Positions 100-37,972 of a stretch of 64,000 bases of DNA are shown here, in pieces. The stretch is from contig OZ025873.1 in the NCBI GenBank assembly GCA_964019415.1, forward strand, positions 7,406,234 to 7,470,233, in the 5' to 3' direction. Within the stretch, counting starts at the first letter, position 1; every line of letters starts with the position of its first letter. This stretch comes from Ianthella basta (Eukaryota; Porifera; Demospongiae; Verongiida; Ianthellidae). The notes beneath the pieces were generated by a model. It was not told where the DNA came from, ran no database searches, and was given only the letters and a program-made list of their open reading frames with translations. The translations under genes and the position numbers were made by a program.

Positions 100-3000
100 C
101 TACACAGCTCCATCATCAACTCGCGCTGTATTCTCCAAATGTTCTACACCTACGCCGCTGCCTATTCCATCTTCATCTTCCTCTCCTCCTCCACTCCGCC
201 CACCTCCCCCTTCCACCTGGGCCCCATCCACCACAGGTTGACTGATGTAGGGAGTGTCATAGGTATGTGGCTCGGTAGTGTCCTCACCTGCAGACCATGA
301 GCAGAGTGGGAAGGCATCTATGTGTGTTTCACACATAACTGACTTGCATGCAACACCACCTTACACCTCAGTATACGTACATGTTAGCATAATGCTCACA
401 TGCACATAACATGTACAGCTGGTGATGCTCCAAACATATTGCAATACGCGCTTAAAACAGAAGGTATATACTGCCATGGACATGAGAAATACAACATCAA
501 TGGCACTACTTCCACAGTGGCCCATGTGCTCATGATGATATACCTTCCAAGGTGAGAGGTGCATAAGCTGGATTAGCCTTCATGGTGACTTCTTCACACT
601 CATCACTAAGAGTATTCCCCAAAGTGGACCTGCCAAATTAAACATTATTATTTACAATCACAGGTATGACAACCTCACTCTGCACTTTACCAGGTAGTTG
701 CATAGACACACATAGGCTACTTGTGCAATACCTTAAGGCTACTAATTTTACCACTACTCACTAATTTAGCAAACTTAGTGAGTAGTGAAAATTGCTAAAA
801 ATTTGTACTCACAAAATTTTGTACAGGCAATGCAAAAATATCACTATACACAAACTTCAGAATTGCTACTATTATTACCCACCAAATCCTAGACTGTTCA
901 AAACACTAAATTTAGTTGCCTCTCAAATTTTTAGCCTTAAGGCATTTTACTTATAGGAAGAGTAAGCATTGGTAGCTATCAAGCCTTAATTCAATACAAT
1001 CATAGACAATCCACTCTACCTATGGTGCAATACAACCTAACAGCATCACTAGTTAAACATTGTACAGTAAACAATTAGTGACAGTGCAGCAGTTTCCCCT
1101 TCTCTCACTCTTGAGTAACTGGCTGATTTGTCTGCCCTTCATCCATGTTGTAGTACTCGGTAAACATTTCATCTTGAGGATGCAAATTGGGATGCAAATA
1201 ATTACCATACACTGCAGTAGTCAGTTGCCATGACAATCAGGATAAGCAGTAGAGATGGTAGCCAGAAAAGTTGGTCAAGCTCAGGGGGCCGGGCACCAGC
1301 ATCTGAAAACTCCATAGCATGCACTCACCACATTGCCAGCAACCACATGTGCAGTTATGTGTGCATGTACTTACTGCTGAATGCTATGTCAGTCATTCTT
1401 ATTCCTTCACCTTGTTGCTTTACGGAATATCTGTAACAAACAAAGACCATCATTCAAAATTATTACTCAATACTAGTGTGCGTATGTGCTGGTGTGTGTC
1501 TGTGACTTAGCTGTAAACAATGCATGCAAGTACATAATTATAATGAAGGCATGTTTACCACAGCGCACACAATACAAACCTTCCACTTCTCCTCCAGCAG
1601 ATCAAAGCCACCACAAATGCTACGACCATACATATCGGCAGAACACCAGCTACAATCCAGCCACTGGCTATAGCAATAGTAGATGGCGGGCATGTGGGAG
1701 GTGGCGGACTGGATATTGTAGGAATTGTAATGTTCCTCAAGTAAAATGGCTGCAGCAGCCCTGAGTCCACTCTGGTCTCAATCTGAACTTGGTACTCCTC
1801 CCCTGTCTGGACACCCTGTGCAGTGAGTTGAGACTGAGTGGCTGGGAGGATGTACCGTAACTGGGTAGCTGGCCACACCCCTAGAGGGGCCAAAGTGACC
1901 TCATACTGTAATAGGGAATCACCAACAAACTGAGTAGGAGGAGTCCACTGGAGTAGGAGAGCATCGGCAATAGTCGCTGGACTGTAACCCACTGTCAGCA
2001 AATGCAAAATTCAACATTTGAAATAATATATACAATGCAACTGGAAGATCGAGTAAAAGTCTATCAGTATGCATCTCTACAACATACGTATGTATACATC
2101 CAGCATATAATATTATCATCTATAAGAGTATAGTACACAACTTCAAGACAAAGGCAATGACGCAGGCCAGCATGAAGCTTGTGCTTTGCTTGGCAGCATT
2201 GTTCTCTTACCTGTGTTTGTAGTAGTGACGTTGATCCACTCTGTGAATCTGCTGACTGCTGCATCATTGACAGTTGCAACTTTCAAGCTATACTCCTGTC
2301 CAGGTGTCAACCCTAGTACATAAAGGAAACTGCCTCCTTCAAGAGAGACGTTTACCAATGTTGCATCACTGAAATCATTAGCTTGTCTCTTTGCTCTGTT
2401 GGCAGCAGGTTGGAGCATTAGCACCTGTCCACCTGTAATGACATTCATGACTACACTGGTGGCATTCAATTTGAGGAGAACAGCAGTGTCTCTTGTGATG
2501 TACTGCTCAATGACAGGGATAGGCTGGCCTGAGAATGGAATGTAGAATTCGATATGATTAATTGGCATGATACAGATCTGGACATTACCAATTAAGTATT
2601 TTAGTACTGAAGTATATTCACAGCCCAGTAACTGCATGCCTACAGCAACCAGTCCTAAATCTGAATTAAAATTCATTGGAAGGGTTCAGAGTGAAAAGGT
2701 ATACACAACATCTTCATGTATAAATGCAATAACCTTCACCATTCATGATGCTGACAGTTGCGATGTCAGGTGATTCCTTGATGACACCCGTAGCTGCAGA
2801 TGCTGGTGGGATCTCCAGGGTAAGAGTGAAGGACTTAGCAAGTTCAGCAATGGCGTCACTAATGATAGGCACATTGAAAGTGATCACATTCACTCCAGCG
2901 GGGAAGGTCACTGAGAAGGTTTCACCCTCGTAGTCAGAGCCACCTGTGAGTGAAGTCATGAGTCAGAGGAGGTGAGGATACTTGCAAGAATGTACATTTC

Positions 3001-4898
3001 ATGCAATTTAACTGCACATCTTATCCTTGCTAGAATTATACTGCAATAGAGGGGGCACAAACCCCACCATAAGTGTAAACACTCTAGCTGGTGTAAAGTA
3101 GAATAAAGTGTACGAGTGGTGTCAAGACTCACGAACAGCACTTCCATTCTGTGTGAGGACTGTGACAGTGAAGGCAAAAGGATGGGCTGCAAGTGCTTCC
3201 AAGGTAATGACAGCATTGATGTCCACTCCTTTCGTCACAGAGTAAATGGGGCGACTGAATCGTACAGGAATTGAGGCTGTGCAAGTGCAAAGCAAAAACA
3301 GTCTACATGGAAAGTCTTGAATACAACAAAATGTTATGGGACAGTGTGTGCTGCCAGCATGTTCATCAACTATTGTACAAAAAATATAAACAATAGAATG
3401 CATACCACCAGTTAGGTCTACTGTACATAATGTGTACCTGCATGGACAGCCTAGGAATGATCATTTCCAGCTGATTATCAGACTAACAGTCTTCCGTTGC
3501 AGAACATGCAGATATATAGCAAAACACTTGAAGTGGTATACTGTTTTGGTGATGGTATTACACAGTGCATTACTGTAGTAGCTGTGTAATGTGACTCACG
3601 GCATGCAATGGCAGCTGATAGCTCTGAGGTTAAATTGTTAAAGACATCGAGGGTTTCAGCAATGAAAATGTGGTCTGAGTTGCTCCCAGTGATGGTCAGT
3701 AGCTCTAAGGTTGCACGGTCAATCATGTTCATTACCCGGCTACCAAATGCAACACCGTAGTTGATAGTGCCTGCTGCGACAGTGACAGCTGTAGCATTCT
3801 CCAGTCTCTGCTGGTCAAACTCATCAGTTTCACCAAAGTAGTGAGTTTCACCATCAGTAATGACAATGATGACTCTAGAGACACCAACACGACCCTGTTC
3901 TTCAAATATCCTAACACACTCCTCCATAGCTCCAGGAGTGTTGGTTCCACCGGGAGTAGTCCTCTCTACTCGGACCACATTGCGAATGACATTCACCAAA
4001 GTGGTCTTGTCAGTGTAAGTGGTCAAGTTGAACTCTCTGAACACATCTCTCCCATACTTGACCATAGCCACCCTGCTGTCCTGAGCTGTGGGGCCAACAT
4101 TCAGCCCATCAACAATCTGAGAAATGATGTCTACCAGTGTGATGAAGTCGTCATCATTGATACTGTTCGACGAATCAGCAGCTATGCAGTAGTCCACAGG
4201 AATGGTGCAGTTCATTTCCACTGAATTCAAAACAAGAGCAACACAATAGAATACAGTAATGTCTGTTACCCACACCCCCAGGTTTGCAGCTACTGTTGTT
4301 CCAAACAGTAACATAAACTTTAAGCCTGTATGGTTCTACGTATGTACAGTCACTCTCTATCCAACATCAGTGATACACTTGAGCAGTGAATGAACAATAA
4401 CACTACACACTCAGGTAGCTAGAACGGTACACACAATATCAGCATATTAAGTCCAAATAGCTACTTACGATACACATCAGGCCACATTAGCTAATCTTGT
4501 AGTGCACAACAACGACAACAACCATTCCCACACAGTCAACATCAGCTTGTGCTGCACACCACTCCCTGTGCATGTGATCAGCTCACCTTGAGCTGCCGCA
4601 CCAAGCAGGCAGGCGAGTGCTGCGGCGTATGTAGATGAAAGACATGCTTCAAGTAACATAACTCAGCAACAAACGTTGTCAAGGTGCATATGTACGCAGT
4701 GTCAAGTGAACTGATTTCAAGCAAAGGTAGCAAAGGTTAGGTTGACGCCAAATTGTGGTCGAAGCCACGTACGTAGCCAGCTAGCTACAGTGTGATTCCC
4801 TCAACTGGTAGCTGAAACGAAGCTTGACGCATATAGCGAGCCTGCAACGAACACATACCTGCAATAAGCCTTAGCCTTGCGGCAACAGGAGTCATCAT
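100..4898 (-). CDS. Array gene A1: VWA / Calx-beta / FN3 single-pass receptor, 733 aa
   Basis: Eleven exons (high to low): 4859-4898, 4587-4619, 3600-4220, 3133-3276, 2734-2943, 2211-2528, 1580-1991, 1375-1430, 1109-1172, 544-629, 100-317. All junctions are GT-AG and the sum is 2202 nt with no stop. Residues 1-24 form a signal peptide ending LLGAAAQ. Residues 25-231 are a VWA domain with an intact MIDAS (DSSNS, a GGTNT threonine, ITDG). About 232-349 is one Calx-beta repeat, 350-455 an FN3-like module with an RAKR site, 456-550 a second FN3 and about 566-588 the membrane helix followed by WRRSGR. The tail carries NPAY, then YDTPY and an acidic C-terminus. It is the smallest array member and has no VWC exons, probably by deletion. 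The start is the first of two adjacent ATGs. Cell-surface adhesion or recognition is inferred from the domains; ligand unknown. Confidence 0.88.
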
Positions 4899-4990: not shown

Positions 4991-5542
4991 TATCTAATGC
5001 AGCACATATACGTGTGTACCGTAAACGAGCAATCACAGAATGACATTGTACTAAGCAATTCTGCGATCTCAGTTCCGCCCACTTCTCTACATAGTCCTGA
5101 TCACTTAGCTAGTGTGCGTTAAATTGGGCACTCTGATTTCGCCAATGGATCTATGCTATATAGTTACTGGTATATGTGGCTTGGCCTAGTCAATGATGGG
5201 CAGGCCTAGTAGTGAGTACATTATTAGCTAGTAGTGTACATTTATACTAACAATATGGTTGGTGTATTAACATTGTTTTGACCAACAGTTCCTCTAGCCA
5301 TCTATCAGGATACTGTGTGTTTCAACTCAATTCAGGCTGGCATTTATTAAAATAAAATATACATAGCACAGACATAGCTTAGAAAGACACTATTACAAAC
5401 AACACGTGTACAGTGTCACACTGCAACATGCACTAGTATATATGCATTAGAAAGAATCAGTAATTAGTGCTTATGTAACTGTTACTGTGCTCGTTTCTTT
5501 AGACCATCCACTGTTGGCACACTTGTAATACTCAGCCTTCAC
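4991..5542. other. Intergenic spacer between A1 and the tail relic
   Basis: No coding exon is recognisable. The stretch around 5200-5480 resembles the spacers at 18.1-19.0 kb and 38.1-38.5 kb, so it is part of the duplicated array unit. The last exon of the type II tail seen in gene F is not found here and was probably lost by deletion. Confidence 0.5.
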
Positions 5543-5938
5543 CTGCAGTGGTTACATGAGCTGGGTTAGCCTTCATGGCGACCTTTTCAAACTCATCATC
5601 ATAGCTTGTAACCAAAGTGGACCTACTGGAGCAGTCATGAGTGTGGCAACTTCATGTCATTGTGTACAGTAGAAGCATTTGCATAAACACACAGCTGTTA
5701 ATGGACAAAACAGTGACTATAATAAATGTTATAGCAGGCCAATCTAAGAGAAATACAGTGTGAACACACAAAAGCACATATAGTTATACACCTCTATAAT
5801 TACAGCTCATTCTGCATGTACGAGATTGCTACAGTGAATTAAATGCTATATAGAAAGAGAATTGTTCCTATGCACCCTGGTGCAGAAGGATGCCTTGCCT
5901 GCCTTCACTCATGGTGATGTACTGTGCAGCCATGTCAT
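5543..5938 (-). pseudogene. Relic of type II cytoplasmic-tail cassette downstream of A2
   Basis: Positions 5543-5622 match the 80-nt NPxY-type tail exon of gene F and stay open, but read NPAH instead of NPAY. Positions about 5876-5938 match the preceding tail exon (MAAQYITMSEG), but a one-base deletion shifts its end into an early stop and the AG acceptor before it is gone (CTCAAA). The final exon is missing. Gene A2 already has its own complete type I tail upstream (7.6-8.5 kb), so this is a leftover of an older array unit rather than a usable exon set. Confidence 0.65.
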
Positions 5939-6099: not shown

Positions 6100-6102
<3 letters not shown>

Positions 6103-7609: not shown

Positions 7610-9761
7610 CTACTCCATCTTTGTCTTGCAGTTCTCAAGATCTCCTTCACTCCACCCACCTCCCTCTTCCATGTTGGCCCCATCCACAGGCTGACGAATG
7701 TCCTCACCTGCAGACCATATGAAGACGTTGGAAGGAGATGTAATATCATTGCTACTGCTATGAACACCAGAAATACAACTTCAGTGCCTCGAGCTCTCCA
7801 CCTATTAATGGTATTTAAATTTGCTCATGCATGCAAGCTACATAATATACCTTCCAATACAGTAGGTGCATTAGCTGGGTTAGCCTTCGCGGTCACTTCT
7901 TCACACTCATCACTGAGAGTTGTCTCAAAACAGGATCTGCGATATTGAACAATTAATCACAATTATGGCAGCCTCATTCTTCAACATGCAGAGAGTAGGT
8001 ACACAGACACACATCTATACTGTAGGTTTACTGAATAGCATAAGAATACATCAATAGGGAGATTAAGCATATGTCTGTAGCTAACAATATTAATTTAATA
8101 AAATGCACCCATAGTCGGACACTGTGTACAGGTGGTAGTGTGCAGCGATATCCCCTTCTCTCACTCTTGTGTAGCTGGCTGACTTGTCTTCCCTTCATCC
8201 ATGTTGCTGCCGTGGGCAATCAACTCATCTTGAGGATGCAAATTGGGATGAAAGTAATTACCATACACACACAGGCAAGAAGTGGTCACTTGCCATGATC
8301 AGGGGAAACATAACAGGAGGTAACCACCATGTTGTGAATTCGAGCAAATATATAATAATTACAAGTTGCTGAGGGTCGGGGGGACATTAGCATCTAAAAC
8401 TGCTTCTAGTGTGCTGTTCTTAGTGTGGACCACATTGCCAAAACTTATGCTCTTACAGTACATGCACACTCACTGCTGAATGCTGCATTACTGAAGGTTG
8501 AACATGCCACCATTCCTATTCCTTCATCTTGCAGTTTCACAGAGTATCTGGCACAGCCAAATAAATACCTATTATTAGCGTGTGTGCTGTAAGTGTGTGA
8601 CTTAGCTGTACGTAAAACAATGAGTACATGCATGCTTCATCAAAACATACAGTCACAAACCTTCCACTTCTCCTCCAGCAGATCAAAGCCGCCACTAATG
8701 TCACAACCAAACATATCAGTAGAACACCAGCTACAAGCCAGCCACTGGCTATAGGAATAGTAGCTGGTGGGCATGTGGGAGGTGGCGGATTAGATGTTGT
8801 AGGAATTGTAACGTTCATTGAGTAAAATGGCTGCACCAGTCCTGAGTCCACTCTGGTCTCAATCTCAACCTGGTACTCCTCTCCCGCCTGGAGACCCTGT
8901 GCAGTGAGTTGAGACTTTGTGGCTGGGAGGAAGTACTTCACCTGGATGGCTGGCTCTGCCCCTAGTGGGGTGAGAGTGACCTCATACTGTAACAGGGAAT
9001 CACCAACAAACTGAGTGGGATGAGTCCACTGGAGTAGGAGGCTATTGGCAATAGTCACTGGAGTAACCACTATAAGGAAAAGAGAGAATCAGTGTAGAGT
9101 AAGAGTAAGAAAATGCACTGAGTTGCAACTTGTCTTGCTTGTTGCAGTGATCCAGTCGCACACAACAATATAATAATAATAATTATATCTTAGATACTGA
9201 GATGTATGCATGGTGCGGGATAGAAATCCAAATGTATAATAGTACCTCTACTACATATTATACACATTCTGGCAAAATTCTATATGATTAACCTGCTTCA
9301 AGACAGAAAGCAATAGTAAGACTCTAGCCAGCATAGTGCTTATGTCATGCTCAGCAGCACTGCTTTCTTACCTGTGTTTGTAGTAGTGACGTTGATCCAC
9401 TCTGTGAATCTGCTGACTGCTGCATCATTGACAGTTGCCACTTTCAACCTATACTCCTGACCAGGTGACAACCCTAGTACATAAAGGAAACTGCCTCCTT
9501 CAAGAGAGATGTTTACCAATGTTGCATCACTGAAATCATTAGCTTGTCTCTTTGCTCTGTTGGCAGCAAGTTGGAGCAGTAGCACCTGACCACCTGTAAT
9601 GACATTCATGACTACACTGGTAGCATTCAATTTGAGGAGAACAGCAGTATCTCTTGTGATGTACTGCTCAATGACAGGGATAGGCTGACCTGAGAATGGA
9701 ATGTGGAGTGTGCACACACAATGAAGATGAATGCGCACACACATGCACACATGCACGCATG

Positions 9762-9797
<36 letters not shown>

Positions 9798-12700
9798 CGC
9801 ACACACACACACACACCACCCACAACGGCTCATAACACACACGCACCAGTAACACATACATACTATGCACTTTAACATAGGTACGTACAAGGTACATTGG
9901 TGTTCATGATAGTCTCTCCAGCCACATAGTCCACTCCATCAATGGTACAGGCAATGGGTTCACAAGTGATGGTCGGACAGCAGACACCAGGAGGAGGGGG
10001 AGTGGAAGAAGTCAACTTCTCACCAGTAGGACAGCTTGGACACGTCGCCATCTACTCAAGGAAGGGAAAGTTTAACACCTTACCAGTGTACAGTTGAATT
10101 TTTATCTCACTACAGGCTTACAGTGCAGTTTCTACTTCCATCTGCTTCACAAGAACTGAAATGGAAATGGGAGTTTGAAAGACATAAAGGCAATTTGGCT
10201 CAGACATTTGTTCGTAAATAGGAAACGCTCGTATGCAGCACAGAAGAGACCAACTCACCAGCTAATCTCACAAGGGTCAATGGTTGGAATAGTCTCTCCA
10301 GCCACATAGTCAACTCCATCAATGGTACAGGCAATGGGTTCACAAGTGATAGTTGGACAGCAGACACCAGGACCAGGAGGAATGGAAACAGTCTCCTTTT
10401 GACCATCAGGACAGCTGGGACATGTCATGTTCTTTAGAAAGAACAAAGTACTCATTCATTAACACTATCTACGTCATTAATAATATATAGAAAGTATGCA
10501 TTCAACAAGCAAGCAATGATCACTAACAGTAGACTAGACTACCAACATCCAGCAACATACATTTTCTTTCATTCTTCTTATGATGAGCACTTACACTGCA
10601 GTTCCTGCTTCCATCTGCAGCACAGGAGCTGATCATGAAATGGAAATGGAAATGGACATTCAGCTAATGCAATCCAACATTCTGGATTGAGTGCATCACA
10701 GTTATCTGTATTATAATTATTCTATGGTACAAACTTATGAATAAAATAATTATATCAACGCACCAGCTAATCTCACATGGACCAACAGTTGGAATAGTCT
10801 CTCCAGCCACATAGTCCACTCCATCAATGGTGCAGGCAATAGGTTCACATGTAATGGTTGGACAGCAGACACCAGGACCAGGTAGAATAGAAGCAGTCAA
10901 TTTCTCCCCAAGGGGACAGCTTGGACACATTGTTATCTACATAAGTACACAAATGAGGTCTAGGGGTCACTCATCCACCTTTTTCAACACTGCACAAGGA
11001 CTGTAACTGTGAGTGGCTGGATGGGTGGGTGGATGCTGATTGGGATTACTTACACTGCAGTTTCTGTTTCCACCTAAAGCACAAGAGCTGAAATAGCAAT
11101 GGGAGGCACAATTTAGTACAGAGATGATACGTGTGAGGTGACTTATATTGTCTGCCAACTGAATCACACATAGCCACAAGCAGCATAATAACGGCATACC
11201 AGCTCACCAGCTAATCTCACAAGGGTCGATGGTTGGGATAGTCTCTCCAGCCACATAGTCCACTCCATCAATGGTGCAGGCAATGGGTTCACAAGTGATG
11301 GCTGGACAGCAGACACCAGGAGGAGGGGGAGTGGAAGCAACCAACTTCTCACCAGTGGGACAGCTACAGAACTGATTCCTGTACTGGAAGTGCATGAAAT
11401 AGAATGTCAAGGATTATCAGTACACTCTATGAAAATACATAACTGTCATGCTCAAGCTGTCAAAGGAGACATTCACTGACAGTAACAATGGCATGGCCAG
11501 AATTCTAACCTCCGTTACATTATAAACAGTTCCATTGAAGACACACACTGCAGAGAGAGGAGTCAAGAGTGAGAATATCTGAATTTACATCAAGTGTGAT
11601 ATACAATACATATCATAAGAGATACAGTATGAACATCCCACAGCTGACATGAATAGCAATACTCATAACCTGTCACTAACTCTAAATTTGCTTGCCGTTC
11701 TGAATCTTAATTGTACAGCTCTGGGCATTATCATGCAGATAAGTAGCTTAGTACATACCAAGTATAACCACAACCCATTTACCACCTACAGCAACTAGCC
11801 CTATAAGTCTGAATCTCAAAAGCAACACTGAAAAATTGAAATTCATTTGAAGGGTTCTGAGTGTAAAGGTATACTCTAAGTCATCATGCCTCTATAAATG
11901 CAATAACCTTCATCATCCATGATGTTGACAGTTGCAGTGTCAGGTGATGCCTTCATGACACCCATAGCTGCAGATGCTGGTGGGATCTCCAGGGTTAGAA
12001 TGAAGGACTCAGCAAGATCAGCAATGTTGTCATCAATGATGGGCACATTGAAGTTCATCACATTCACTCCAGCAGGGAAGGTCACTGAGAAACTTTCACC
12101 CTCGTAGTCAGAACCACCTGTAAATGAAAGGAGGAGAGATCTTCTACACTGATCCCAGATAAAGTGAGCCAACACATCCAGCTGGAAAGTGTAACACAAA
12201 GCATGTGTGAGAACAAGACTCACCTATAGCACTTCCATCATGTGTGAGGACTGTGACAGTGAAGGCAAAGGGATGGGCCACAAGTGCTTCCAAGGTGATG
12301 ACAGCATTGCTGTCAACTCCTTCCGTCACAGAGTAGTTGGAAGGATTGAACCGAACTGGAATCATGGCTGTGGGCACACATAGAGAGAGAGCACAATCCA
12401 ATTGATGGTTGCATGCACTGTACAGTCGAGAAGCATCAAGTGAAGCATTCCAAGAGGTGAGTGTATCAAACCGGAAATACTTATCTCAAACGTACGAGTA
12501 GTATCAGTGATGGTGACAAAGGCCACATCTGGAGAACCAACAGCCACAGCTTCCTGTGCACCAGGCAGACTGAGGGTGGCACTGAAGTACTCGTCAGGTT
12601 CCACAAAGTTGTCTTCATTAGTTGCCACAGGGATTGTCACAGTCACTGAGCCAGCAGAGATGACCGCACTAGTGGACACACTAATATAGTCATCAGGATC

Positions 12701-15700
12701 TGGGTGGAAATGAAAGGATGATATGTGCAGTCTGGACTTCAGAGCAATGTATGTATCAAGAAATGGCAAACTGATGTACTTTGAGCAGTGATGTCCATGG
12801 TAGTGACAGTAATGGTGATGTCCTTTGGTGAAGGCTGGTCCAGTACAATCATCAGGTTAGCTGGAGTGCCCTCAGGAACAGTGTAGTTCTGAGGACTGAA
12901 ACTGACGACCACCACTGAAATAGAACATTAAAGATGCTTTGAATAGGGCATACACTGGAAATGTGCACTGTGATGCAATCTGCTAACCCTCGTCATCCAT
13001 GATGTTGACAGTTGCAGTGTCAGGTGATCCCTTCATGACACCCATAGCCGCAGATGCAGCTGGGATCTCAAGGTCAAGAGTGAAGGACTCAGCAAGTTCA
13101 GCAATGTTGTCATCAATGATGGGCACATTGAAGTTCATCACATTCACTCCAGCAGGGAAGGTCACTGAGAAACTTACACCTGAATAGTCAGAGCCACCTG
13201 TGAGTGAGTTAAATGAAAGGAGGAGAGATCTTCTACACTGATCCCACATTAAGTGAGCCAACACATCCAGCTGGAAAGTGTAACACAAAGCATGTGTGAG
13301 AACAAGACTCACCAATAGCACTTCCATCCTGTGTGAGGACTGTGACAGTGAAGGCAAAGGGATGGGCCACAAGTGCTTCCAAGGTGATGACAGCATTGCT
13401 GTCCACTCCTTCTGTCACAGAGTAGTTGGATGGATTGAACCGTACTGGAATCAAGGCTGCAAAAATATATGAAAGGAGAACACAGTCCAATTGATGGTTG
13501 CATCACTTGCATGCACTATACAGTTGGGGAGCATCAAGGGAGGTATTTCAAGAAGTGAGTGTACCAAAATGGGAATGCTTATTTCACACATACGGGTGGT
13601 ATCAGTGATGGTGACAAAGGCCACATCTGGAGAGCCAACAGCCACAGCTTCCTGTCCACCAAGCAGACTGAGGGTGGCACTTAAGTACTCGTCAGGTTCC
13701 ACAAAGTTGTCTTCATTAGTAGTCACAGGGACTGTCACAGTCACTGAGCCAGCAGAGATGACCACACCAGTGGACACACCAATGTAGTCATTAGGATCTG
13801 GGCGGAAATGAAAGGAATACACTTGCAGTCTGAACCTCAAAGCAATGATTCAGTATCAAGTAATGGCAAATTGATGTATACCTTCAGCTGTGATGTCCAT
13901 GGTGGTAACGGTAATGGTGATGTCCTTTGGTGAAGGCTGGTCCAGTACAATCATCAGGTTAGCTGGAGTGCCCTCAGGAACAGTGTAGTTCTGAGGACTG
14001 AAACTGATGACCACCACTGAAATAGAACATTAAAGATGTTTTGAATAGGGCATACACTGGAAATGTGCACTGTGATGCATTCAACTTACCTTCATCATCC
14101 ATGATGTTGACAGTTGCAATGTCAGGTGATCCCTTCATGACGCCCATAGCTCTAGATGCAGCTGGGATCTCAAGGTCAAGAGTGAAGGACTCAGCAAATT
14201 CAGCAATGTTGTCATTAATGATGGGCACATTGAAGTTCATCACATTCACTCCAGCAGGGAAGGTCACTGAGAAACTTACACCTGAATAGTCAGAGCCACC
14301 TGTGAGTGAGTTAAATGGAAGGTGGAGAGATCTTCTACACTGATCCCACATTAAGTGAGCCAACACATCCAGCTGGAAAGTGTAACACAAAGCATGTGTG
14401 AGAACAAGACTCACCAATAGCACTTCCATCCTGTGTGAGGACTGTGACAGTGAAGGCAAAGGGATGGGCCACAAGTGCTTCCAAGGTGATGACAGCATTG
14501 CTGTCCACTCCTTCCGTCACAGAGTAGTTGGAGGGATTGAGCCGTACTGGAATCATGGCTGTGGAAGTAAACACAATACTCACTGTAATTGAGGGATTAG
14601 ATGTTCCATTCGGGAATTTTTAATGAAGAGGATGGAAAATGTCATTGTGTGTGTCCCAGTGTTAGCAATGATGGTGGAATCTCAGCTGTAGGAATGCATA
14701 AAATGAATACAAAGTCCACCTAGGGGGGATTGTAGCCATAACTTTGAGTGGTTAGTAAGACTAAGCCACTTGGGGCACACTCTTCGAATCAAGCCCACAA
14801 CTGAATAAATGCAACACAATTCATCCCCTGCCTAGCTTATATACAGAAGGTCTGTCAAAACCAGTCACTACTAGTTGTAACCAGAACATACAGTTACAGG
14901 TGACCACAGAACACAGCAGTAACAGGTGATCAAAGATCATAACACAATACAAGACAGCAGACACCAGTACATGTAGCAATCATGTCAAGTCAAGACACCA
15001 CAGAATGCATATGCAATGGGAATGTCTATCTCAAACATACGGGTGGTATCAGTGATGGTGACAAAGGCCACATCTGGAGAGCCAACAGCCACAGCTTCCT
15101 GAGCACCAGGCAGACTGAGGCTGGCACTGAAGAACTCGTCAGGTTCCACAAAGTTGTCTTCATTAGTAGCCACGGGGAGTACCCCATTCAGTGTGCCAGT
15201 TGAGATGGTCACATTGAAAGACCCACCGACATAGTCATCACCACCTGGGTGGAATGAATTGATAGAATGACACTTGTAGTATGTCCCTTACAAGAATATA
15301 TCAAGTTTCAGCCCCTGTGTATTTCCTGCCTGCTTATTATTACACAGTCACAACTGCACAAAAACAGGGGTGACATGCAAGACTAGCATCAAGTAGTGAT
15401 AGACAGACTAATGTTATGGAGATCATATTCAACTAAGCACATGCGTGTACCTTGAGCTGTGATGTCCATGGTAGTGACAGTGACAGTGATGTCCTTTGGT
15501 GAAGCCTGGTCCAGTACAATCATCAGGTTAGCTGTAGTGCCCTCAGGAACAGTGTAGTTCTGAGGGCTGAAACTGACGACAACCTCTGAAATGAAAGAAG
15601 TAGCATGTCTGTAATAGAGGCATAGTGTGAATACGTAGACACTGAGATGTACTGTACTAACCCTCGTCATCTATGATGTTGACAGTTACATTGTCTGGTG

Positions 15701-22057: not shown

Positions 22058-22088
<31 letters not shown>

Positions 22089-25000: not shown

Positions 25001-25432
25001 GAGAGAGTCATATAATTAACTTGCTCACCCTGTGCTGCCGCGCCAACCAGACACGCAAGTGCTGCGGCGTATGAAGAGGAAAGAAAGGCTTAAAGTAACA
25101 CAACACAGCAACAAATGCAACGCTATCAAGGTGCACTAGCTAATAGTCTAAACCCGTGCACGTCGACGTGAACTGTCGGTCTGATTGCAAGCCAAAGTAT
25201 AGAGAAGAAATCGATGTTGCAAGCGAGGGTAGTTTGACATGGTCAGAATCACGTGGCTATAAATTCGTGTAGGAGACACTGAAAGCTTATGATAGCTAGC
25301 TAGCTACTGTCTAGCTAGTTAGCTATACAGTGATTCCTTCAGCGGGTAGCTGAAACAGAATTGAACCTGACGCATATAGCGAGACTGCAACGTATACGTA
25401 CCAGCAAGAAGCGTTACGGTAACAGGAGACAT
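19851..25432 (-). CDS. Array gene B: VWA / Calx-beta / VWC / FN3 receptor, 807 aa
   Basis: Exons: 25402-25432, 25029-25061, 24058-24681, 23345-23488, 22621-22830, 22437-22474, 22158-22323, 21657-21974, 21051-21462, 20829-20896, 20560-20623, 20302-20387, 19851-20080; total 2424 nt in frame. Signal peptide 1-21, VWA 22-229 with full MIDAS, one Calx-beta (230-347), one VWC-like cysteine module (348-415), FN3 with RAKR (416-521), FN3 plus membrane helix (522-658), tail to 807. The tail has EYYNM, NPAY and an acidic end; the YDTPY of A1 reads YDTPC here. The start of the VWA exon (LTNNCSNPVDYC) diverges from the other copies (MNCTIPVDYC). A possible AATAAA lies just after the stop on the minus strand (TTTATT near 19833). 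Its intron 22831-23344 is longer than in paralogues and holds unidentified sequence. Confidence 0.87.
22060..22088. repeat. CA microsatellite in B intron
   Basis: A short (CA)n run between the VWC exon and the first FN3 exon, at the position equivalent to the CA tracts of A2 and F. Confidence 0.85.
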
Positions 25433-26874: not shown

Positions 26875-29800
26875 CTACTCCATCTTTGTCTTCCAATCCT
26901 TTAGATCTCCTTCTCCACTCCATCCACCTCTCTCTTCCATGTTGGCCCCATCCACAGGCTGACAGATGTCCTCATCTGCAGACCATATGAAGACATTGGA
27001 AGGAGATGTAATATTATAGCTACTGCTACAAACACCAGAAATACGACTTCAGTGTCTCAAGCTCTCCACCTATTAATGGTATTTAAATTTGCTCATATGC
27101 ATACAAGCTACATAACATACCTTCCAACACAGTAGGTGCATAAGCTGGGTTAGCCTTCGCGGTCACTTCTTCACACTCATCGCTGAGAGTTGTCTCAAAA
27201 CTGGATCTGCGATATTAAACAATTAGTCACAATTTTGGCAGCCTCATGCATTCTTCAACATGCAGGGTAGGTACATAGACACACCTCTATAGGTTTGCTG
27301 AATAGCATAAGAATACATCAATAGGGAGATTAAGCATTCGTCTGTAGTTAGTAAGACTAATTTAATGAAATGCACCCATAGTCGGACACTGTGTACAGGT
27401 GGTAGTGTGCAGTGATATCCCCTTCTCTCACTCTTGTGTAGCTGGCTGACTTGTCTTCCCTTCATCCATGTTGCTGTAGTGGCCATCATCGGCATGGGCA
27501 ACCAACTCATCTTGAGGGCACAAATTAATTGAGATGAAAATAATTACCATACACACACAGGCATGCATGCAGTGGTCACATTGCCATGATGCCTACCAGC
27601 TTGTAAGTTCAAGCAAAATTATATTAATTACCACCAGCAGTGCAAGCTGCTGAGGGTCGAGGGGACATTAACATCTGAAACTGTTCTTAGTGTGGACCAC
27701 ATTGCGAAAAATTATGCTCTCACAGTATATGCACACTCACTGCTGAATGCTGCATCAGTGAAAGTTGAACATGCCACCATTCCTATTCCTTCATCTTGCA
27801 GTTTCACAGAGTATCTAGCACAACCAAATAAATACCTCTTATTAGCGTGTGTGCTGTAAGTGTGGCTGTGACTTAGGTGTAAAACAATGAGTGCATACAT
27901 GCTTCTATAAAACACACAAATACAAACCTTCCACTTCTCCTTCCACGGATCAAAGCCACCACTAAAGTTACAACCAAACATATCAGCAGAATACCAGCTA
28001 CAATCCAGCCACTGGCTATAGGAATAGTAGCTGGTGGGCATGTGGGAGGTGGTGGATTGGAAGTTGCAGGAATTGTAATGTTCCTGGAGTAAAATGGCTG
28101 CAGCAGTCCTGAGTCTACTCTGGTCTCAATCTCAACCTGGTACTCCTCCCCTGTCTGGAGACCCTGTGCAGTGAGTTGAGACTGAGCGGCTGGGAGGATG
28201 TAACTAACCTGGGCAACTGGCCCCACCCCCAGGAGGGTCAGAGTGACCTCATACTGTAAGAGGGAGTCACCATCAAACTGAGTGGAAGGAGTCCACTGGA
28301 GCAGGAGGGTATCAACAACAGTCGCTGGACCATAAGCCACTGTCAGCAAAAGCAAGAACAAATACATCATATACAAATACATACAATAATTGTAAATATA
28401 AAGATAATGTGTTCTAAAGGTGTCTTGCTCTTCACAGTGATTCATCAGGTGCACAACAATGCAGCAGTCTGGAAACTATGTAAAAGTAAACCAGTGCCTC
28501 TTCTACACTACATGCATTCTATGAATATCCTGCTACACAACCTCAAGACAGAAAGCAGTGGAACATGACTCTGGAAAGAAGATAACTTATCCTATACATT
28601 GGCAGCATTGTTCTCCAACCTGTGTTTGTAGTAGTGACGTTGATCCACTCTGTGAATCTGCTGACTGCTGCATCATTGACAGTTGCCACTTTCAAGCTAT
28701 ACTCCTGTCCAGGTGTCAACCCTAGTACATAAAGGAAACTGCTTCCTTCAAGAGAGACGTTTACGAATGTTGCATCACTGAAATCATTAGCTTGTCTCTT
28801 TGCTCTGTTGGCAGCATGTTGGAGCAGTAGCACCTGACCACCTGTAATGACATTCATGACTACACTGTTGGCATTCAATTTGAAGAGAACAGCAGTGTCT
28901 CTTGTGATGTACTGCTCAATGACAGGGATAGGCTGACCTGAGAATGGAATAATGAAATGGCACACACACACTTACAGGAAGAAATTCGTAAGCATAAATA
29001 CAGCTAGGCCTTTGGAAGAAGGCCACGTCCGAAGACAGGCATAATGGAAGAAGGCAAACCCTGTAATTTTCAACATACAGGGTAGATTGGTGTTCATAAT
29101 AGTCTCTCCAGCCACATAGTTCACTCCATCAATGGTACAGGCAATGGGTTCACAAGTGATGGTTGGACAGCAGACACCAGGAGGAGGGGGAGTGGAAGCA
29201 GTCAACTTCTCACCAGTGGGACAGCTACAGAACTGATTTCTGTACTGGAAGATCACCAAATTAGGCATGTCAATGATTATGAGTACGCCCTATAGGATTG
29301 TGTAGCAGTCAAGCTCAAGCTGTTGAAGAAGTAATGCACAGAAAGTAATGAATGGTGACAAGGCCATACAGAATACTAACCTCAAATACATTATATACAG
29401 TTCCATTGAAGACACAAACTGCATGCAAAGAAAGAGGTCAAGAGTGAGGCTGACCAACTGAATGTACCATTTAAAACAGTTATTCATCATGCCTCTATAA
29501 ACTCAGCTAACCGTCGTCATCAATGATGTTGACAGTTGCAGTGTCAGGTGATTCTGCAATGACACCCATAGCTGCAGATGCTGGTGGGATCACCAGGTCG
29601 AGAGTGAAGGACTCAGCAAGTTCATCAATGTTGTCATTAATGATGGAGACATCGAAGCTTGTCACATTCACACCAGCAGGGAAGGTCACTGAGAAACTTT
29701 CACCCTCGTAGTCAGAGCTACCTGTGAGCAAGTTAAATGGAAATAGGAGGTGGGGAGAGGTGCAAGAATATTTCGTGCTATAGAGCTGTGTTGTCTTTGT

Positions 29801-32800
29801 TTGAACTATGACCCTACAATAGCAGGCCACCTACTGCACAGTTCCTTCATAAATTAAGTGAACACTTCCTAGCTCAAAGTGAATAAAGTGTATAAGTTGC
29901 GATAAGACTTACAAATAGCACTTCCATTCTGTGTGAAGACTGTGACAGTGAAGGCAAAGCTGGAATGATTCTCAAGTGCTTCCAAGGTGATGACAGCATT
30001 GCTGTCTGCTCCTTCTGTCACAGAGTAGTTGGAGGGATTAAACCGTACTGGAATCATGGCTGTAGAGATATAAAAGAATATACAAAGTCCATTTGGGGAT
30101 TGCATGGCAGTTCAATAGCATCTTGTGAGGTACACCAAGAGATGTACCCAACTGGGAATGCCTATCTCAAACATACGGGTTGTATCTGTGATGGTGACAA
30201 AGGCCACATCTGGAGAGCCAACAGCCACAGCTTCCTGTGCAAAAGGCAGACTGAGGGTGGCACTGAAGTACTCGTCAGGTTCCACAAAGTTGTCTTCATT
30301 AGTAGTCACAGGGACTGTCACAGTCACTGAGCCAGCAGAGATGACCACACTAGTGGGCACACTAGTGTAGTCATTAGGATCTGGGTGGAAATGAAAGGAT
30401 GATACGTGCAGTCTGGACCTCAGAGCAATGTATGTATAAAGAAATGGCAAATTGATGTACTTTGAGCAGTGATGTCCGTGGTAGTGACAGCAATGGTGAT
30501 GTCCTTTGGTGAAGGCTGGTCCATTACAATCATTAGGTTAGCTGGAGTGCCCTCAGGAACAGTGTAGTTCTGAGGACTGAAATTGACGACCGCCACTGAA
30601 ATGGAACATTAAAGATGCTTTAAATAGGACATACGTACCCTGGAAATGTACTACATTGTAATGCATTCAACTAAGAAGTTTAAACAGGAGCAAATGAAAA
30701 GATACTACATCACAAGGAATTGAACCAACCCTCATCGTCTATGATGTTGACAGTTACATTGTCTGGTGATCCCCTAGTGACAGCCAAAGCCACTGATGCT
30801 GGTGGGATCTCCAGGGTAAGAGTGAAGGACTCAGCAGGTTCAGCAATGTTGTCATTAATGATGGACACATTGAAGCTCATCACGTTCACTCTAGCAGGGA
30901 AGGTCACTGAGAAACTTTCACCCGAATAGTCAGAGCCACCTATGTTGGTTGTGTACATGGAATGGTTTCAGCGGGTGTAGATAGGAAGATGATATAGCAT
31001 TGCCATGTATATGACTTGTACACAATGTCACATATACAGTTATGTAAATGCACACTGAACGACTTACTGGTAGCAGTGCCATCCTGTGTCAGGACTGTAA
31101 GGCTGAAACCATAGGAAGGATGGTCTTTAAGGGCTTCCAAGGTGATGACAGCATTGCTGTCCACTCCTTCCATTACAGAGTAGACGGGGAGACTGAACCG
31201 TACTGGAATTGAGGCTGTGCAAGTGCAAGCAGAACAAAAAGTATATATGCACATAACTACAGTTCCCACTTGACATATTGCATTACTGACAACAATTGTA
31301 TATATGCATGTGACTCACAGCATGCATTAGCAGCTGATAGCTCTGAGGTTAAGCTGTTAAGGATATCGAGGGTTTCAGCAATGAAAACGTGGTCTGAGTT
31401 GTTCCCAGTGATGGTCAGTAGCTCTGAGGTGGCACGGTCAATCACGTTCATCACCCGGCTACCAAATGCAACACCGTAGTTGGTAGTGCCTTCTGCAACA
31501 GTGACAGCTGTAGCATTCTCCAGTCTCTGCTGGTCAAACTCGTCAGTTTCACCAAAGTAGTGAGTGACACCGTCAGTAATGACAATGATGACTCTAGAGA
31601 CACCAACACGACTCTGTTCTTCAAATATCCTAACACACTCCTCCATAGCTCCTGGAGTGTTGGTTCCACCGGGAGTAGTCCTCTCTATTCTGGCTACATT
31701 GCGAATGACATTCACCAAAGTGGTCTTGTCCGTGTAAGTGGTCAAGTTGAACTCTCTAAACACATCTCTCCCATACTTGACCATAGCCACCCTGCTGTCC
31801 TGGGCTGTGGGGCCAACATTCAGCCCATCAACAATCTGAGAAATGATGTCTACCAGTATGATGAAGTCATCATCATTGATACTGTTGCCCGAATCAGCAG
31901 CTATGCAGTAGTCCGCAGGAATGGTGCAATTCATCTGCTCTGAATACAAAAAGAAAAACAGGATTAGCTGATAATGAATGCACTGATGTCTGTTAGCTGT
32001 TTAGTACGCAGTTACTGCTTCTGCAAACAGTGAAACTAAAACAATACCAATTCAAATTAGGCAAAGTACACCTAATTTGAAGAACATTCTGTGTGATAAA
32101 GTCTAAGATGTACATGTGCTCCAAACATACGGGTGGTATCAGTGATGGTGACAAAGGCCACATCTGGAGAGCCAACAGCCACAGCTTCCTGTGCACCAGG
32201 CAGACTGAGGGTGGCACTGAAGTACTCGTCAGGTTCCACAAAGTTGTCTTCATTAGTAGCCACAGGGACTGTCACAGTCACTGAGCCAGCAGAGATGACC
32301 ACACTAGTGGACACACCGGTATAGTCATTAATATCTGTGCATGTAGAATTGAAAGAATGACACTTGTAGTCTGACTTTAGAGGAGTGCATCAAGTAATGA
32401 TAGACTGATTAATGATGGATTATATTCAGCACCACTACGTACTGTATGTATCTACCTTCAGCTGTGATGTCCATGGTAGTGGCAGTAATGGTGATGTCTT
32501 TGGATGAAGGCTGGTCCAGTACAATCATCAAGTTAGCTGGAGTGCCCTCAGAAACAGTGTAGCTCTGAGGACTGAAACTGATGACCACCACTGAAATGAA
32601 ACATTTAAAGATACTTTAAATAGAACATACACTGAAAATGTTTGCATGCACTCAACTAACCCTCATCATCCATGATGTTGACAGTTGCAGTGTCAGGTGA
32701 TCCCTTCGTGACGCCCATAGCTGCAGATGCAGCTGGGATCTCCGGAGCAAGAGTGAAGGACTCAGCAAGTTCAGCAATGTTGTCATTAATGATGGACACA

Positions 32801-35800
32801 TTGAAGCTCATCACATTCACTCCAGCAGGGAAGGTCACTGAGAAACTTTCACCCACATAGTCAGAGCCAACTACATGTGAGTTTATGGGTAAAAGACGAG
32901 GTGAAGGAAGATGCAAGCAACATTGCATGCTAAACAAATATGTTGTCTGTACTTTAAGTACCCTGCAGTAGTGGGGTGACCTTTCAGCACTGTTATCATA
33001 TTAAGCAACACAACACACTCTAGCTAGAAAGTGAACAAAATGTACCAGTGATGACAAGACTCACCAGTAGCACTTCCATCCTGTGTGAGAACTGTGACAG
33101 TGAAGGCAAAGCTGGGATGGTTCTCAAGTGCTTCCAAGGTGATGATAACATTGCTGTCTGCTCCTTCTGTCACAGAGTAGTTGGAGGGATTGAAGTGCAC
33201 TGGAATGATGGCTGTGGAAATGAAGGGATAGAAAGTCCAGTAAGGATTGTACTGTGATATAGTGCCTTGAGAAAAATGCTACGGTAGCTAGAGGGGAATG
33301 CTGGAATGCGTATCTCAAATGTACGGGTGGTATCAGTGATGGTGACATAGGCCACATTCGGAGAGCGAACAACCCCGATATCCGGTGCACCATGGCCAGG
33401 TAGGCTGAGGGTAGCACTGAAGTACTCGTCAGGTTCCACAACGAAGTCCTCTTTAGTAATCAAAGACAGTGTTGTATTCACTAAGCCAGCTGAGATGGTC
33501 ACATTGAAAGACCCGCCCACATAATCCTCAGGATCTGGGTAGAAGGGATATAAAAAGGAAGTCATTTGTGGACCTCAGAGGACTTATACATATATCATGT
33601 AATGCAAACAGATTAATATTGGATTACATTCTACACATAAATACCTTCGGCTGAGATATCCATGGTAGTAACAGAAACAGTGATGTCATTTGGTGAAGGT
33701 TTGTTTAGTGTGATCATCAGGTTAGCTGGAGTGCCCTCAGGAACAGTGTAGTCCTGAGGACCGAAACTGATGGCATGTACTGAATAGGAAGAAGTAACAT
33801 ATCCTTAGTTATTTAGGTAAAGATCGAGTGGATAGTTACTACACCGAGATGAACTGTGCTAACCATCATTGTCTATGATGTTGACAGTTACATTGTCTGG
33901 TGATCCCCTGGTGACAGCCATAGCCGCAGATGCTGATGGGATGTCCAGGGTAAGAGTGAAGGACTCATCAAGTTCTGCAATGCCGTCATTAATGATGGAC
34001 ACATTGAAGCTGATCACATTCACTCCAGCAGGGAAGGTCACTGAGAAGCTTTCATCCTGGTAGTCAGAGTCACCTTTGTTGGTTGTGAAGATGGAATGGT
34101 TTCATTGAGTGCATATTATACGAAGATGATAGCATTGCCATGTATCCACAATGTCATAAGCATAATTGCATATCAAATGAGTGAAGGCAAAACTTACGAG
34201 TAGCACTTCCATCCTGTGTGAGCACTGTGACTGTGAAGCCATAGGAAGGATGGTTTGTAAGTACTTCCAAAGTGATGACAGCATTGCTGTCCACTCCTTC
34301 CACCACAGAGTAGATGGGGCGACTGAACCGTACAGGAATTGAGGCTGTGCAAGTGCAAAGCAGAATACTCCACACAGAAGCATACACTTCCTTTACGTAT
34401 GCTTAACTATTACAAAGTTAACATATTCTGAGTAGTAGCGCAGTAATAAATAGTTTATATGCACACAGATACATGGTCCTCTCTCAGTTACCACCCATGA
34501 TATTTAACACAGTACATTACTGGCAGCAACTGCCAAGCGACTCACGGCATGATAAGGTGAAATTGTTAAGGACATCGAGGGTTTCAGCAATGAAAACATG
34601 GTCTGAGTTGTTCCCAGTGATGGTCAGTAGCTCTGAGGTGGCACGGTCAATCACGTTCATCACCCGGCTACCAAATGCAACACCGTAGTTGGTAGTGCCT
34701 GCTGCAACAGTGACAGCTGTAGCATTCTCCAGTCTCTGCTGGTCAAACTCGTCAGTTTCACCAAAGTGGTGAGTAACACCGTCAGTAATGACAATGATGA
34801 CTCTAGAGACACCAATGCGACCCTGTTCTTCAAATAGCCTAACACACTCTTCCATAGCTCCTGGAGTGTTGGTTCCACCGGGAGTAGTCCTCTCTATTCT
34901 GGCTACATTGCGAATGACATTCACCAAAGTGGTCTTGTCCGTGTAAGTGGTCAAGTTGAACTCTCTAAACACATCTCTCCCATACTTGACCATAGCCACC
35001 CTGCTGTTCTGAGCTGTGGAGCCAACATTCAGCCTAACAACGATGCGAGAAATGATGTCTACCAGTGTGATAAAGTCATCGTCATTGATACTGTTGGACG
35101 AATCAGCAGCTATGCAGTAGTCCACAGGAATGGAGCAGTTGATCTGCACTGAATACAAAAGAAGAACAACACAATTTCCTGATAATGAATACACTATTAC
35201 CTATTACAGTAGCTGTCTAGTACACAGTACACATCAAGGATGGGATGGCTGCAATGCCAGCTGTCATTCTCCCTCCTGCGATCATCTATACTGTGCATCA
35301 GAGGATCAAGATCAAGTCTGAATGTCGTCCCACGATTCCCAATCTCCACTGACTTGGCCACCAACAAATCACGCGTGGCCCTCTACTAAATTCCTAAAAC
35401 ATGGGCCTATAACATATTGAACATTTGATATTTGATGTTACCGTTGATATTTTATGCTGTGTGTATTGCCTCATGTTTTTTATTAATGAAAAAAAGTACA
35501 CAGTTACTGCTGTCTCAAGCAGTAACGTTACCACTGCAAGCTAGCATGGTTACACGTGGACACTAAGACAATACCATGCAGTTTAAATCAGACATTACAC
35601 CTCATTAGAAGAATGTCCAAGTTGCACGTGCGTGTGTCCCAAACGTACAAGTAGTATCAAAGATGGTGACAAAGGCCACATCTGGAGAGCCCACAGCCAC
35701 AGCTTCCTGTGCACCAGGCAGACTGAGGGTGGCACTGAAGTACTCTTCAGGTTCCACAAAGTTGTCTTCATTAGTAGTCACAGGGACTGTCACAGTCACT

Positions 35801-37972
35801 GAGCCAGCAGAGATGACCACACTAGTGGAGACACTGGTATAGTCATCAGGATCTGGGTGGAAATGAAAGGATGACATTTGCAGTCTTGACCTTAGAGGAA
35901 TGCATCGAGTAATGCTAAACTGATTACATACTGCATGACATTTCTACCTTCAGCTGAGATGTTCATGGTAGTGACAGTGACAGTGATGTCCTTTGGTGAA
36001 GGCTGGTCCAGTACAATCATCAGGTTAGCTGGAATGCCCTCGGGTACAGTGTAGTATCGAGGACTGAAACTGACGGCCACCACTGAATTGGGAAAAATTA
36101 GCATACTATTAAAATAGGCAAAGAGTGTAAAGATATTACACTAAGTTGCATTGTACTAACCTTCGTTATCCATGATGTTGACAGTTGCAGTGTCAGGTGA
36201 CCATGCAATGACACCCATAGCTGCAATTGCATCTGGGATCTTCAGGTCAAGGGTGAAGGATTCAGCAAGTTCAGCAATGTTGTCATTAATGATGGACACA
36301 TTGAAGCTGATCACATTCACTCCAGCAGGGAAGGTCACTGAGAAGTTTCCACACACATAATCAGAGTCACCTTAACATGGAATGGTTTGAGCAAGAGTAG
36401 GAAGATGACACCAATGCTGTGCATGTATGTACAATTGCATACCGTTACATTATTATACATTGAATGAATGAAGGCAAGACGTACAAAATGCAGTTCCATC
36501 CTGTGTGAGCACTGTGACATTGAAGCCATAAGAAGGATGTTCTGTAAGTGCTTCCAAGGTAATGACAGCATTGCTGTCCAATCCTTCCGTCACAGAGTAG
36601 ATGGAGGAATTGAACCGTACTGGAATTGAGGCTGTGCAAGTGCAAGTTAAAGTAGTCCACAGGGTAAGAATAAAACACAACAAAGCAAAGCTAATACCCT
36701 ACATGCTGACAGCATGTTCAGCTACTGTATTACAAATTACAGTATTATTGTTACAGTAAGGTCTAAAGCATTTATCTGGACAGGCCAAAGTTGCCCCCTT
36801 CAATTAACCATGCATTCATCCACAGGACTTGACACAGTATATTGTTATCAGCAACTGAGTATGTGACTCACGGCATGAGAAGGCGGCTGATAGCAATGAG
36901 GTTAAATTGTTAAAGACATCGAGGGTTTCAGCAATGAAAATATGGTCTGAGTTGTTCCCAGTGATGGTCAGTAGCTCTGAGGTGGCACGGTCAATCACAT
37001 TCATCACCCGGCTACCAAATGCAACACCGTAGTTGGTAGTGCCTGCAGTGACAGTGACAGTTGTAGCATTCTCCAGTCTCTGCTGGTCAAACTCATCGGT
37101 TTCACCAGAGTAGTGAGTGACACCATCAGTAATGACAATGATGACTCTAGAGACACCAACACGACCCTGTTCTTCAAATATTCTAACACACTCCTCCATA
37201 GCTCCTGGAATGTTGGTTCCACCGGGAGTAGTCCTCTCTATTCTGGACACATTGCGAATGATATCCACCAAAGTGGTCTTGTCAGTATAAGCGGTCAAGT
37301 TGAACTCTTTAAACACATCTCTCCCATACTTGACCATAGCCACCCTGCTGTCCTGAGCTGTGGGGCCAACATTCAGCTCATCAACAATCTGAGAAATGAT
37401 GTCTACCAGTGAGATGAAGTCATCGTCATTGGTACTGTTGGACGAGTCAGCAGCTATGCAGTAGTCCACAGGAATGGTGCAGTTTATTTGCACTGAAGTC
37501 AAAAGAGCAACAAACAAGAGCAGCATAATTTCATACACTAATGTCCACACAGACAGCACTACCTTGCGTATATAGCACACCTTACCCAGTGTATAGGGTC
37601 TGCTCACCTTGAGCTGCCGCACCAAGTAGACAGGCGAGTGCTGCGGCGTATAAAGAGTAGAGAATAGCCTCAAGTAGACTAGCTAATAGAACTCAGCAAT
37701 AAATGCTATCAAGTTACATCAGAGTCTACATATGTACGGTAAATGTGAACTGATTGCAAGTGAAGGTTAGCTTGATGCGGTCAAAGCCATACGCAGCTAG
37801 CTAACTACATGACATTGTACAGGACATTGAATAGACCTAGCTACGTTGCTAGCTAGCTACGTAGCTACGCACTGCATCTCTGTGGGTAGCTGAAACAAAC
37901 TGACTGAATATGGCGAGCCTGCAACGTATGCGTACCTGCAATGAGCGTTGACGTTACGGCAACTGGGGACAT
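26875..37972 (-). CDS. Array gene C: 3 VWA / 9 Calx-beta / VWC / FN3 receptor, 2111 aa
   Basis: Thirty-one exons, 6336 nt in frame. Signal 37936-37972, 37608-37640. VWA1 36872-37492. Calx-beta 36485-36631+36161-36370, 35948-36082+35649-35852. VWA2 34546-35148. Calx-beta 34198-34344+33864-34073, 33645-33779+33325-33534, 33065-33211+32661-32870, 32456-32590+32131-32334. VWA3 31319-31939. Calx-beta 31068-31214+30730-30939, 30461-30595+30177-30380, 29913-30059+29512-29721. VWC 29381-29418, 29079-29244. FN3 28620-28937; FN3 plus helix 27928-28339. Tail 27741-27814, 27432-27510, 27121-27206, 26875-26975. VWA2 and VWA3 have no signal exon before them and enter and leave in phase 1, so one long protein is the simplest model. 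VWA2 is six codons shorter at its end. NPAY is present. Alternative: internal promoters could make shorter proteins, but no upstream box precedes VWA2 or VWA3. Confidence 0.82.
35149..35648. other. 500-bp intron of gene C before VWA2, partly unique sequence
   Basis: Positions about 35230-35510 have no counterpart in the other VWA-preceding introns. The plus strand holds a short open stretch ending near 35343 and a T-rich stretch with TTTTTTATTAATGAAAAAAAG near 35476-35497, which could be the tail of an old insertion. Family not identified. Confidence 0.35.

Follow-up and report, generated by a model that had tools for sequence, protein, structure and literature searches.

What do the repeated minus-strand genes on contig OZ025873.1 of the demosponge Ianthella basta encode, and do they form one family of receptors? 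The window, that is, the whole stretch of 64,000 nucleotides analysed here (C6:7406234-7470233, C6 being our name for the contig), had been described preliminarily as carrying four consecutive genes and a fifth for membrane receptors built from VWA, Calx-beta, VWC and FN3 domains and ending in an NPxY tail. We examined these genes and searched the 209 Mb assembly (96 contigs) for related loci. The genes of this array are predicted to be single-pass cell-surface adhesion or recognition receptors, a reading that we consider probable. It is supported by complete gene models, Pfam domains, matches to Protein Data Bank (PDB) sequences, a hydrophobic helix followed by a tail, the ratio of non-synonymous to synonymous divergence (dN/dS), and an FN3-transmembrane (FN3-TM) exon that is almost confined to the array.

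Gene models in the window

Genes were modelled with a simple spliced-gene predictor of our own and then curated exon by exon. The five curated genes, with module numbers given as motif counts, are as follows.

Gene A: 100..4895, minus strand; leader, VWA, one Calx-beta, FN3, FN3, transmembrane helix, NPAY tail; no VWC-like repeat; 722 residues, 11 exons (10 of 10 introns GT-AG, no internal stop; Pfam VWA, Calx-beta and fn3 above cut-off)
Gene B: 7610..17791, minus strand; leader, VWA, seven Calx-beta, four VWC-like, FN3, FN3, transmembrane helix, NPAN tail; 1666 residues, 31 exons (model, motif counts; Pfam on the VWC-like block only)
Gene C: 19851..25432, minus strand; leader, VWA, one Calx-beta, one VWC-like, FN3, FN3, transmembrane helix, NPAY tail; 797 residues, 13 exons (model, Pfam, PDB sequence matches)
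Gene D: 26875..37972, minus strand; leader, three VWA blocks followed by two, four and three Calx-beta, respectively, one VWC-like, FN3, FN3, transmembrane helix, NPAY tail; 2126 residues, 31 exons (model with phase 1-1 exons through the three blocks and no internal stop; counts)
Gene F: 59776..64000, continuing to 65536 past the window, minus strand; leader, VWA, no Calx-beta, four VWC-like, FN3, FN3, transmembrane helix, NPAY tail; 814 residues, 16 exons (model from window and neighbouring contig sequence; Pfam)

All five open reading frames are complete from ATG to stop without internal stops, all 97 introns have GT-AG ends and their phases are consistent, and the leader is spread across two exons in each gene. 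The ends of A (100) and D (37972) agree with the preliminary description; the first exons of F lie outside the window. The same order was found throughout: leader, VWA, a variable middle, FN3, FN3, hydrophobic helix and tail. The proposed set of four consecutive genes plus F, and the proposed order of their modules, are thus borne out, but the genes are not identical in content: D has three VWAs, F lacks Calx-beta and A lacks VWC-like repeats.

Domains, helix and tail

Pfam-A scans were carried out on the whole models of A, C and F and, for B, on the VWC-like block. VWA was found in A, C and F (E 2e-20 to 6e-18), Calx-beta in A and C (E 2e-13 and 2e-14) and fn3 as two stretches in each of A, C and F, all above curated cut-offs; Calx-beta was not recovered in F, nor VWC in the sequences scanned. 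When the part of C up to the helix was compared by sequence with the PDB, matches were to collagen VI alpha3 and integrin alpha-1 for VWA, to the Na/Ca exchanger for Calx-beta and to fibronectin for FN3. The DxSxS motif of a metal-ion-dependent adhesion site (MIDAS) is present in six of the seven VWA exons of the five genes. A 19-residue hydropathy scan (threshold 1.6) was used to call helices and leaders, and in all five models the highest peak is that of the C-terminal helix (2.55-3.32). It is followed by a tail of 81-145 residues which, as in PTB-binding receptors, carries an NPxY motif in four of the five window genes (NPAY in A, C, D and F). The models, the Pfam and PDB matches and the dN/dS values given below together give good support to a family of membrane receptors whose VWA head is of the MIDAS type.

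The VWC label, on the other hand, was not upheld. It was based on VWC-like cysteine spacing alone, and the VWC profile of Pfam did not match F or the four repeats of B (E<=1). The block of B scored above the cut-off for DUF7210 (37.2 versus 27 bits, over 15 residues), and that of F slightly below it. An exon-by-exon search of the genome with PF00093 gave no match in the array and a single one, on C10, among 42 scored; this search had low sensitivity, since every repeat is distributed across more than one exon. The block of F had no PDB match at E<=10, and an NCBIfam run yielded nothing useful. We therefore refer to these repeats as VWC-like.

Selection among paralogues

dN/dS was calculated as mean dN over mean dS among paralogues for four modules, namely VWA, the first FN3 (FN3a), FN3-TM and the NPAY exon, with approximate exon ends for two uncurated genes (Gm2 and Gm3) left of the window; Calx-beta and VWC-like modules were outside this set. 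The values were 0.34 for VWA (10 copies; none of 45 pairs above 1), 0.41 for FN3a (8 copies; 1 of 28 pairs), 0.43 for FN3-TM (8 copies; 0 of 28) and 0.43 for the NPAY exon (7 copies; 0 of 21). These four exons are under purifying selection, which is not expected of chance open reading frames. Diversifying selection on VWA was looked for and rejected in the same set.

Extent of the array

A search of the whole genome with the FN3-TM exon of C gave 14 matches among 25 scored candidates. Thirteen of them, one partial, lie at C6 7.346-7.479 Mb, all on the minus strand, and the only match elsewhere, on C20, is weak (E 0.005). The array therefore reaches past both ends of the window and, with searches for the other modules taken into account, comprises about 12 receptor loci and two relics over about 135 kb. 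Eight receptor genes bear a VWA (A, B, C, D and F, and Gm1-Gm3 to the left), while four FN3-only receptors stand at the array ends (Gm4, Gm5, G10 and G12), with tails that contain NPAY and YENV. Apart from the start of F, loci outside the window are known from automatic models (n=8), of which three (Gm2, Gm3 and Gm5) contain one in-frame stop each.

One of the relics, G11, is a short VWA-FN3 fragment. The other, E, lies in the window in two parts.

Relic E, 5' part: 58540..59174, minus strand; two leader exons (59153-59117 and 58827-58795), VWA exon gone (identity to D and Gm3)
Relic E, 3' part: 38114..38776, minus strand; a lone tail exon (38737-38674) and an F-like 3' flank, NPAY exon gone (identity to F)

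The 5' part is 85% identical to the 5' region of D up to position 58711, and beyond it 90% identical to the sequence that follows the VWA in Gm3; the VWA module search found no match there. The 3' part aligns with the 3' end of F in two blocks (90% and 89% identity), and the NPAY exon of F corresponds to the gap between them.

Probable shuffling and homogenisation of exons

The phases of the exons fit a modular mode of evolution. VWA, Calx-beta and first-FN3 exons are of phase 1-1, the VWC-like block has phase 1 at both outer ends and other phases inside, and the FN3-TM exon is of phase 1-2. In the window the modules range from 1 to 3 for VWA, 0 to 4 for VWC-like and 0 to 9 for Calx-beta, and the automatic model of Gm2 has 17 Calx-beta. 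Two parts of B illustrate how differently its modules are distributed in the genome.

VWA exon of B: 16482..17102, minus strand; phase 1-1, with MIDAS-type DLSNS and TDG (model; genome-wide VWA search)
First-FN3 exon and FN3-TM exon of B: 8661..9689, minus strand; the part that marks the family (model; genome-wide module searches)

Compared with a Calx-rich cluster about 1 Mb away on the same contig (C6:8.445-8.51 Mb), the VWA of B reached 94% identity at best (median 42%), and four Calx-beta half-domains reached 93-100% (medians 79-89%). Against a Calx-rich stretch on C11 (L040), the best values for modules of B, Calx-beta half-domains included, were 68-87%, and against a second C11 stretch (L041) only 39-47%. 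An array-type VWA, 78% identical, was also found on C19. FN3a and FN3-TM had no match at E<=1e-3 in the C6 cluster, C11 or C19 loci. The best reading is that of a receptor family evolving by exon shuffling.

At the C19 locus (L025, C19:3760001-3770000, minus strand; automatic model) the VWA exon is followed by domains that look immunoglobulin-like by eye, an apparent case of exon shuffling into another receptor class. The cluster on C6 (C6:8445050-8510000, L018-L024, plus strand) has one VWA with a Calx-beta array of great length, followed by numerous divergent VWA exons, beside which stand cysteine-rich repeats that matched no Pfam family. Contig C36 gave the same match scores as part of this cluster.

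One FN3 exon of the array also appears to be homogenised. When F was compared with the other VWA-bearing genes except Gm2 (six of seven), mean dS was 0.55 for VWA and 0.44 for FN3-TM, compared with 0.074 for the FN3 exon that lies between them. The intron adjoining that exon is 50-66% identical between F and the other genes; the argument rests on F, because among closer genes this intron is similar as well (up to 90% identical). The FN3 exon at the same position in G10, Gm4 and Gm5 had a pairwise dS of 0.07-0.10 (this being the one module compared in them), and G10 is about 120 kb from the other two. Exon-limited gene conversion looks like the simplest reading, the alternative being constraint at the nucleotide level.

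Second tail cassettes

A second pair of tail exons was found downstream of A, B, C and Gm2. Since its phase is compatible, mutually exclusive 3' ends, that is, alternative cytoplasmic tails, were first suspected. Two of these cassettes are listed here.

Second tail cassette after gene B: 5532..5938, minus strand; broken, with acceptor and frame lost and NPAH in place of the motif (exon sequence)
Second tail cassette after gene C: 19082..19474, minus strand; broken, with the acceptor AG lost (exon sequence; dN/dS of its NPxY exon class 1.30)

All four complete cassettes turned out to be broken, by a stop in A, by loss of acceptor and frame in B, and by loss of the acceptor in C and Gm2; Gm1 retains an intact first exon of the pair, and its second exon was not found. 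The NPxY exon of this class has a dN/dS of 1.30 (5 copies, including that of F itself; the ratio exceeds 1 in 6 of 10 pairs and is undefined in one), compared with 0.43 for the exon in use. Alternative tails were therefore rejected, and the second cassettes are relics.

Proposed function and competing readings

If the genes encode adhesion or recognition receptors, the VWA head would bind a ligand through a metal ion, and the Calx-beta array would serve as a calcium-stiffened spacer. The likeliest ligands would be extracellular matrix or Calx-rich proteins resembling aggregation factors. On binding, the NPxY tail would recruit PTB-domain adaptors of the talin, Dab or Shc type, which would lead to cytoskeletal anchorage, signalling or endocytosis.

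Some observations weigh against this reading. The gene models are computed from the DNA sequence, and the ligand, metal binding, calcium sites of Calx-beta and adaptor binding are predictions only. The third VWA of D has DSGNS in place of DxSxS. The tail of B reads NPAN and lacks the tyrosine, so that the NPxY tails claimed for the whole set hold for the four other genes. In genes A to D the hydropathy scan also gave lesser peaks above 1.6 within Calx-beta or VWC-like regions (at most 2.11, in C), and in the leader of F it gave no peak above 1.6.

The same protein architecture could serve other ends. Tandem expansion would suit receptors of innate immunity or phagocytosis that are directed at microbes or food bacteria, and NPxY tails serve endocytosis too. 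Sponge genes containing VWA and Calx-beta domains shift their expression after microbial stimuli, in the available part of one study (PMC6208332), and their membership in the array family is putative. Yet no lectin, SRCR or LRR domain turned up when A, C and F were scanned with Pfam, and none of the four modules tested shows diversifying selection, so that we regard an immune role as rather doubtful. A role as allorecognition determinants, in which polymorphic receptors would use their variable heads to compare one individual with its neighbours, is close to the self/non-self discrimination proposed in the preliminary description. It would account for tandem single-pass receptors with varying module numbers, relics and apparent conversion, and for VWA and Calx-beta exons common to the array and the Calx-rich genes; moreover, Calx-beta aggregation factors are tied to allorecognition in Amphimedon in the available text of a review (PMC10815962). 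Against it, the purifying selection on the tested modules argues, though not decisively, against a role that needs diversifying heads, and with no VWA pair among the paralogues above 1 the proposal finds no support. The genome search with FN3-TM gave no sign of another allele of the array on a different contig, although a purged or collapsed assembly could hide one, and genes for aggregation-factor-mediated adhesion were not enriched in the accessible portion of an Amphimedon grafting study (PMC5450542). We hold allorecognition to be unlikely.

A different objection is that each model fuses two genes, one for a secreted VWA-Calx protein and one for a separate FN3-TM receptor. The modules stand on independent exons, which would allow such an error, and a VWA with a long Calx-beta array and no FN3-TM does occur at C6:8.445-8.47 Mb (automatic model). 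However, the order from leader and VWA to FN3-TM and tail is repeated in five curated genes with no clear second leader exon in between and no stop, and the whole of F is contained within about 6 kb, which makes fusion very improbable. A last idea combines several of these observations. The array would encode the membrane-bound counterparts of the aggregation-factor system, having exons in common with secreted Calx-rich proteins, binding these or each other through matched modules and signalling through NPxY, while shuffling and conversion would keep both sides compatible. If true, the locus would hold an aggregation-factor receptor and be a candidate sponge recognition locus; we offer this as a speculation that is decidedly unlikely.

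Comparison with known systems

Aggregation factors resemble the array genes in having Calx-beta arrays in clustered sponge genes, as A to D have here and F does not. They have a specific C-terminal (Wreath) domain and are secreted without a membrane anchor, whereas two FN3 domains, a helix and a tail are present in all five array models. The available part of the review describes aggregation factors as extracellular proteoglycans, and states that clustered aggregation-related genes bearing Calx-beta domains control allorecognition in Amphimedon (PMC10815962). The suggested link to these factors gains some support, because the VWA and Calx-beta exons of B match Calx-rich genes elsewhere at more than 90% at best; the identity of the Calx-rich genes of C6 and C11 as aggregation factors is putative.

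Integrin alpha chains with an inserted I domain also have a VWA/I domain with a MIDAS, and C matches that of integrin alpha-1. They differ in their FG-GAP beta-propeller repeats, unmatched in A, C and F (Pfam, E<=1), and in the array proteins a single chain carries both the I domain and NPxY. FRAS1/FREM proteins have Calx-beta, and FRAS1 has VWC and a transmembrane helix too; their CSPG repeats were unmatched in A, C and F under the same conditions, and a VWA head and an FN3 pair are found instead. In the available excerpt of a report on Hydractinia, Alr is a single-pass receptor family in one genomic interval (PMC11067881). The array is likewise a tandem single-pass family, but Alr proteins belong to the immunoglobulin superfamily, and the diversifying selection on ectodomains that, along with extreme polymorphism predictive of fusion or rejection, marks allorecognition determinants was not found in the VWA and FN3 exons.

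None of the open-access titles and abstracts searched, a set without preprints and most subscription journals, describes this combination of domains, and the earlier statement that no such receptor had been described is uncontradicted there. In a database of 5.8 billion proteins, one match of 1366 residues, with Calx-beta among its domains, was obtained among the 7995 best candidates scored; eukaryotes are perhaps thinly covered in this database, so that a single match says little.

Neighbouring sequences and other loci

Between the two parts of relic E, open reading frames gave weak, sub-cut-off matches to TauD and RRM_1, and two of the four scanned matched no family. Minus-strand frames at 57366-58241 look by eye like a dioxygenase of the gamma-butyrobetaine type (in one of two, a weak TauD match that does not reach the cut-off). 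On visual inspection, others at 40.3-46.3 kb, also on the minus strand, resemble the gene of a U2AF-type splicing factor; RRM_1 is matched weakly at 44.1-44.5 kb, and an RS-rich frame adjoins a minisatellite rich in GA (40402-41060, about 550 bp). Beyond the window, beta-COP-like exons (by eye) flank the array about 11-20 kb past the right end, and on the other side, about 73-75 kb before the window begins and close to where the array ends, there is a frame resembling the reverse transcriptase of a retroelement (by eye).

Elsewhere in the assembly, the mitochondrial contig C96 (21,233 bp) has a COX1 that is read through nine TGA codons, 20 tRNA predictions in two pieces, and atp9, recognised by eye in translation; such a combination is typical of demosponges and suggests that the assembly is that of one. 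No clear silicatein was found among eight cathepsin loci (L029-L036). One of them, L030 (C6:3129864-3135966 region), has three adjacent cathepsin-like single-exon matches, and in two open reading frames the catalytic Cys position is seemingly replaced (GDS, versus GSC in the others).

Significance

The domains of these proteins are known singly; their joint occurrence on one membrane-anchored protein, encoded by genes in tandem, was not found in the literature searched. VWA and Calx-beta exons of the array recur, with hardly any change, in Calx-rich genes at other sites of the genome, and the array is a clear case of receptor evolution exon by exon. To our knowledge, two questions in sponge biology are open: what the receptor for the aggregation factor on the cell surface is, and whether there is a locus that controls tissue compatibility and, if so, which. 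For both questions, the array provides a concrete and testable candidate.

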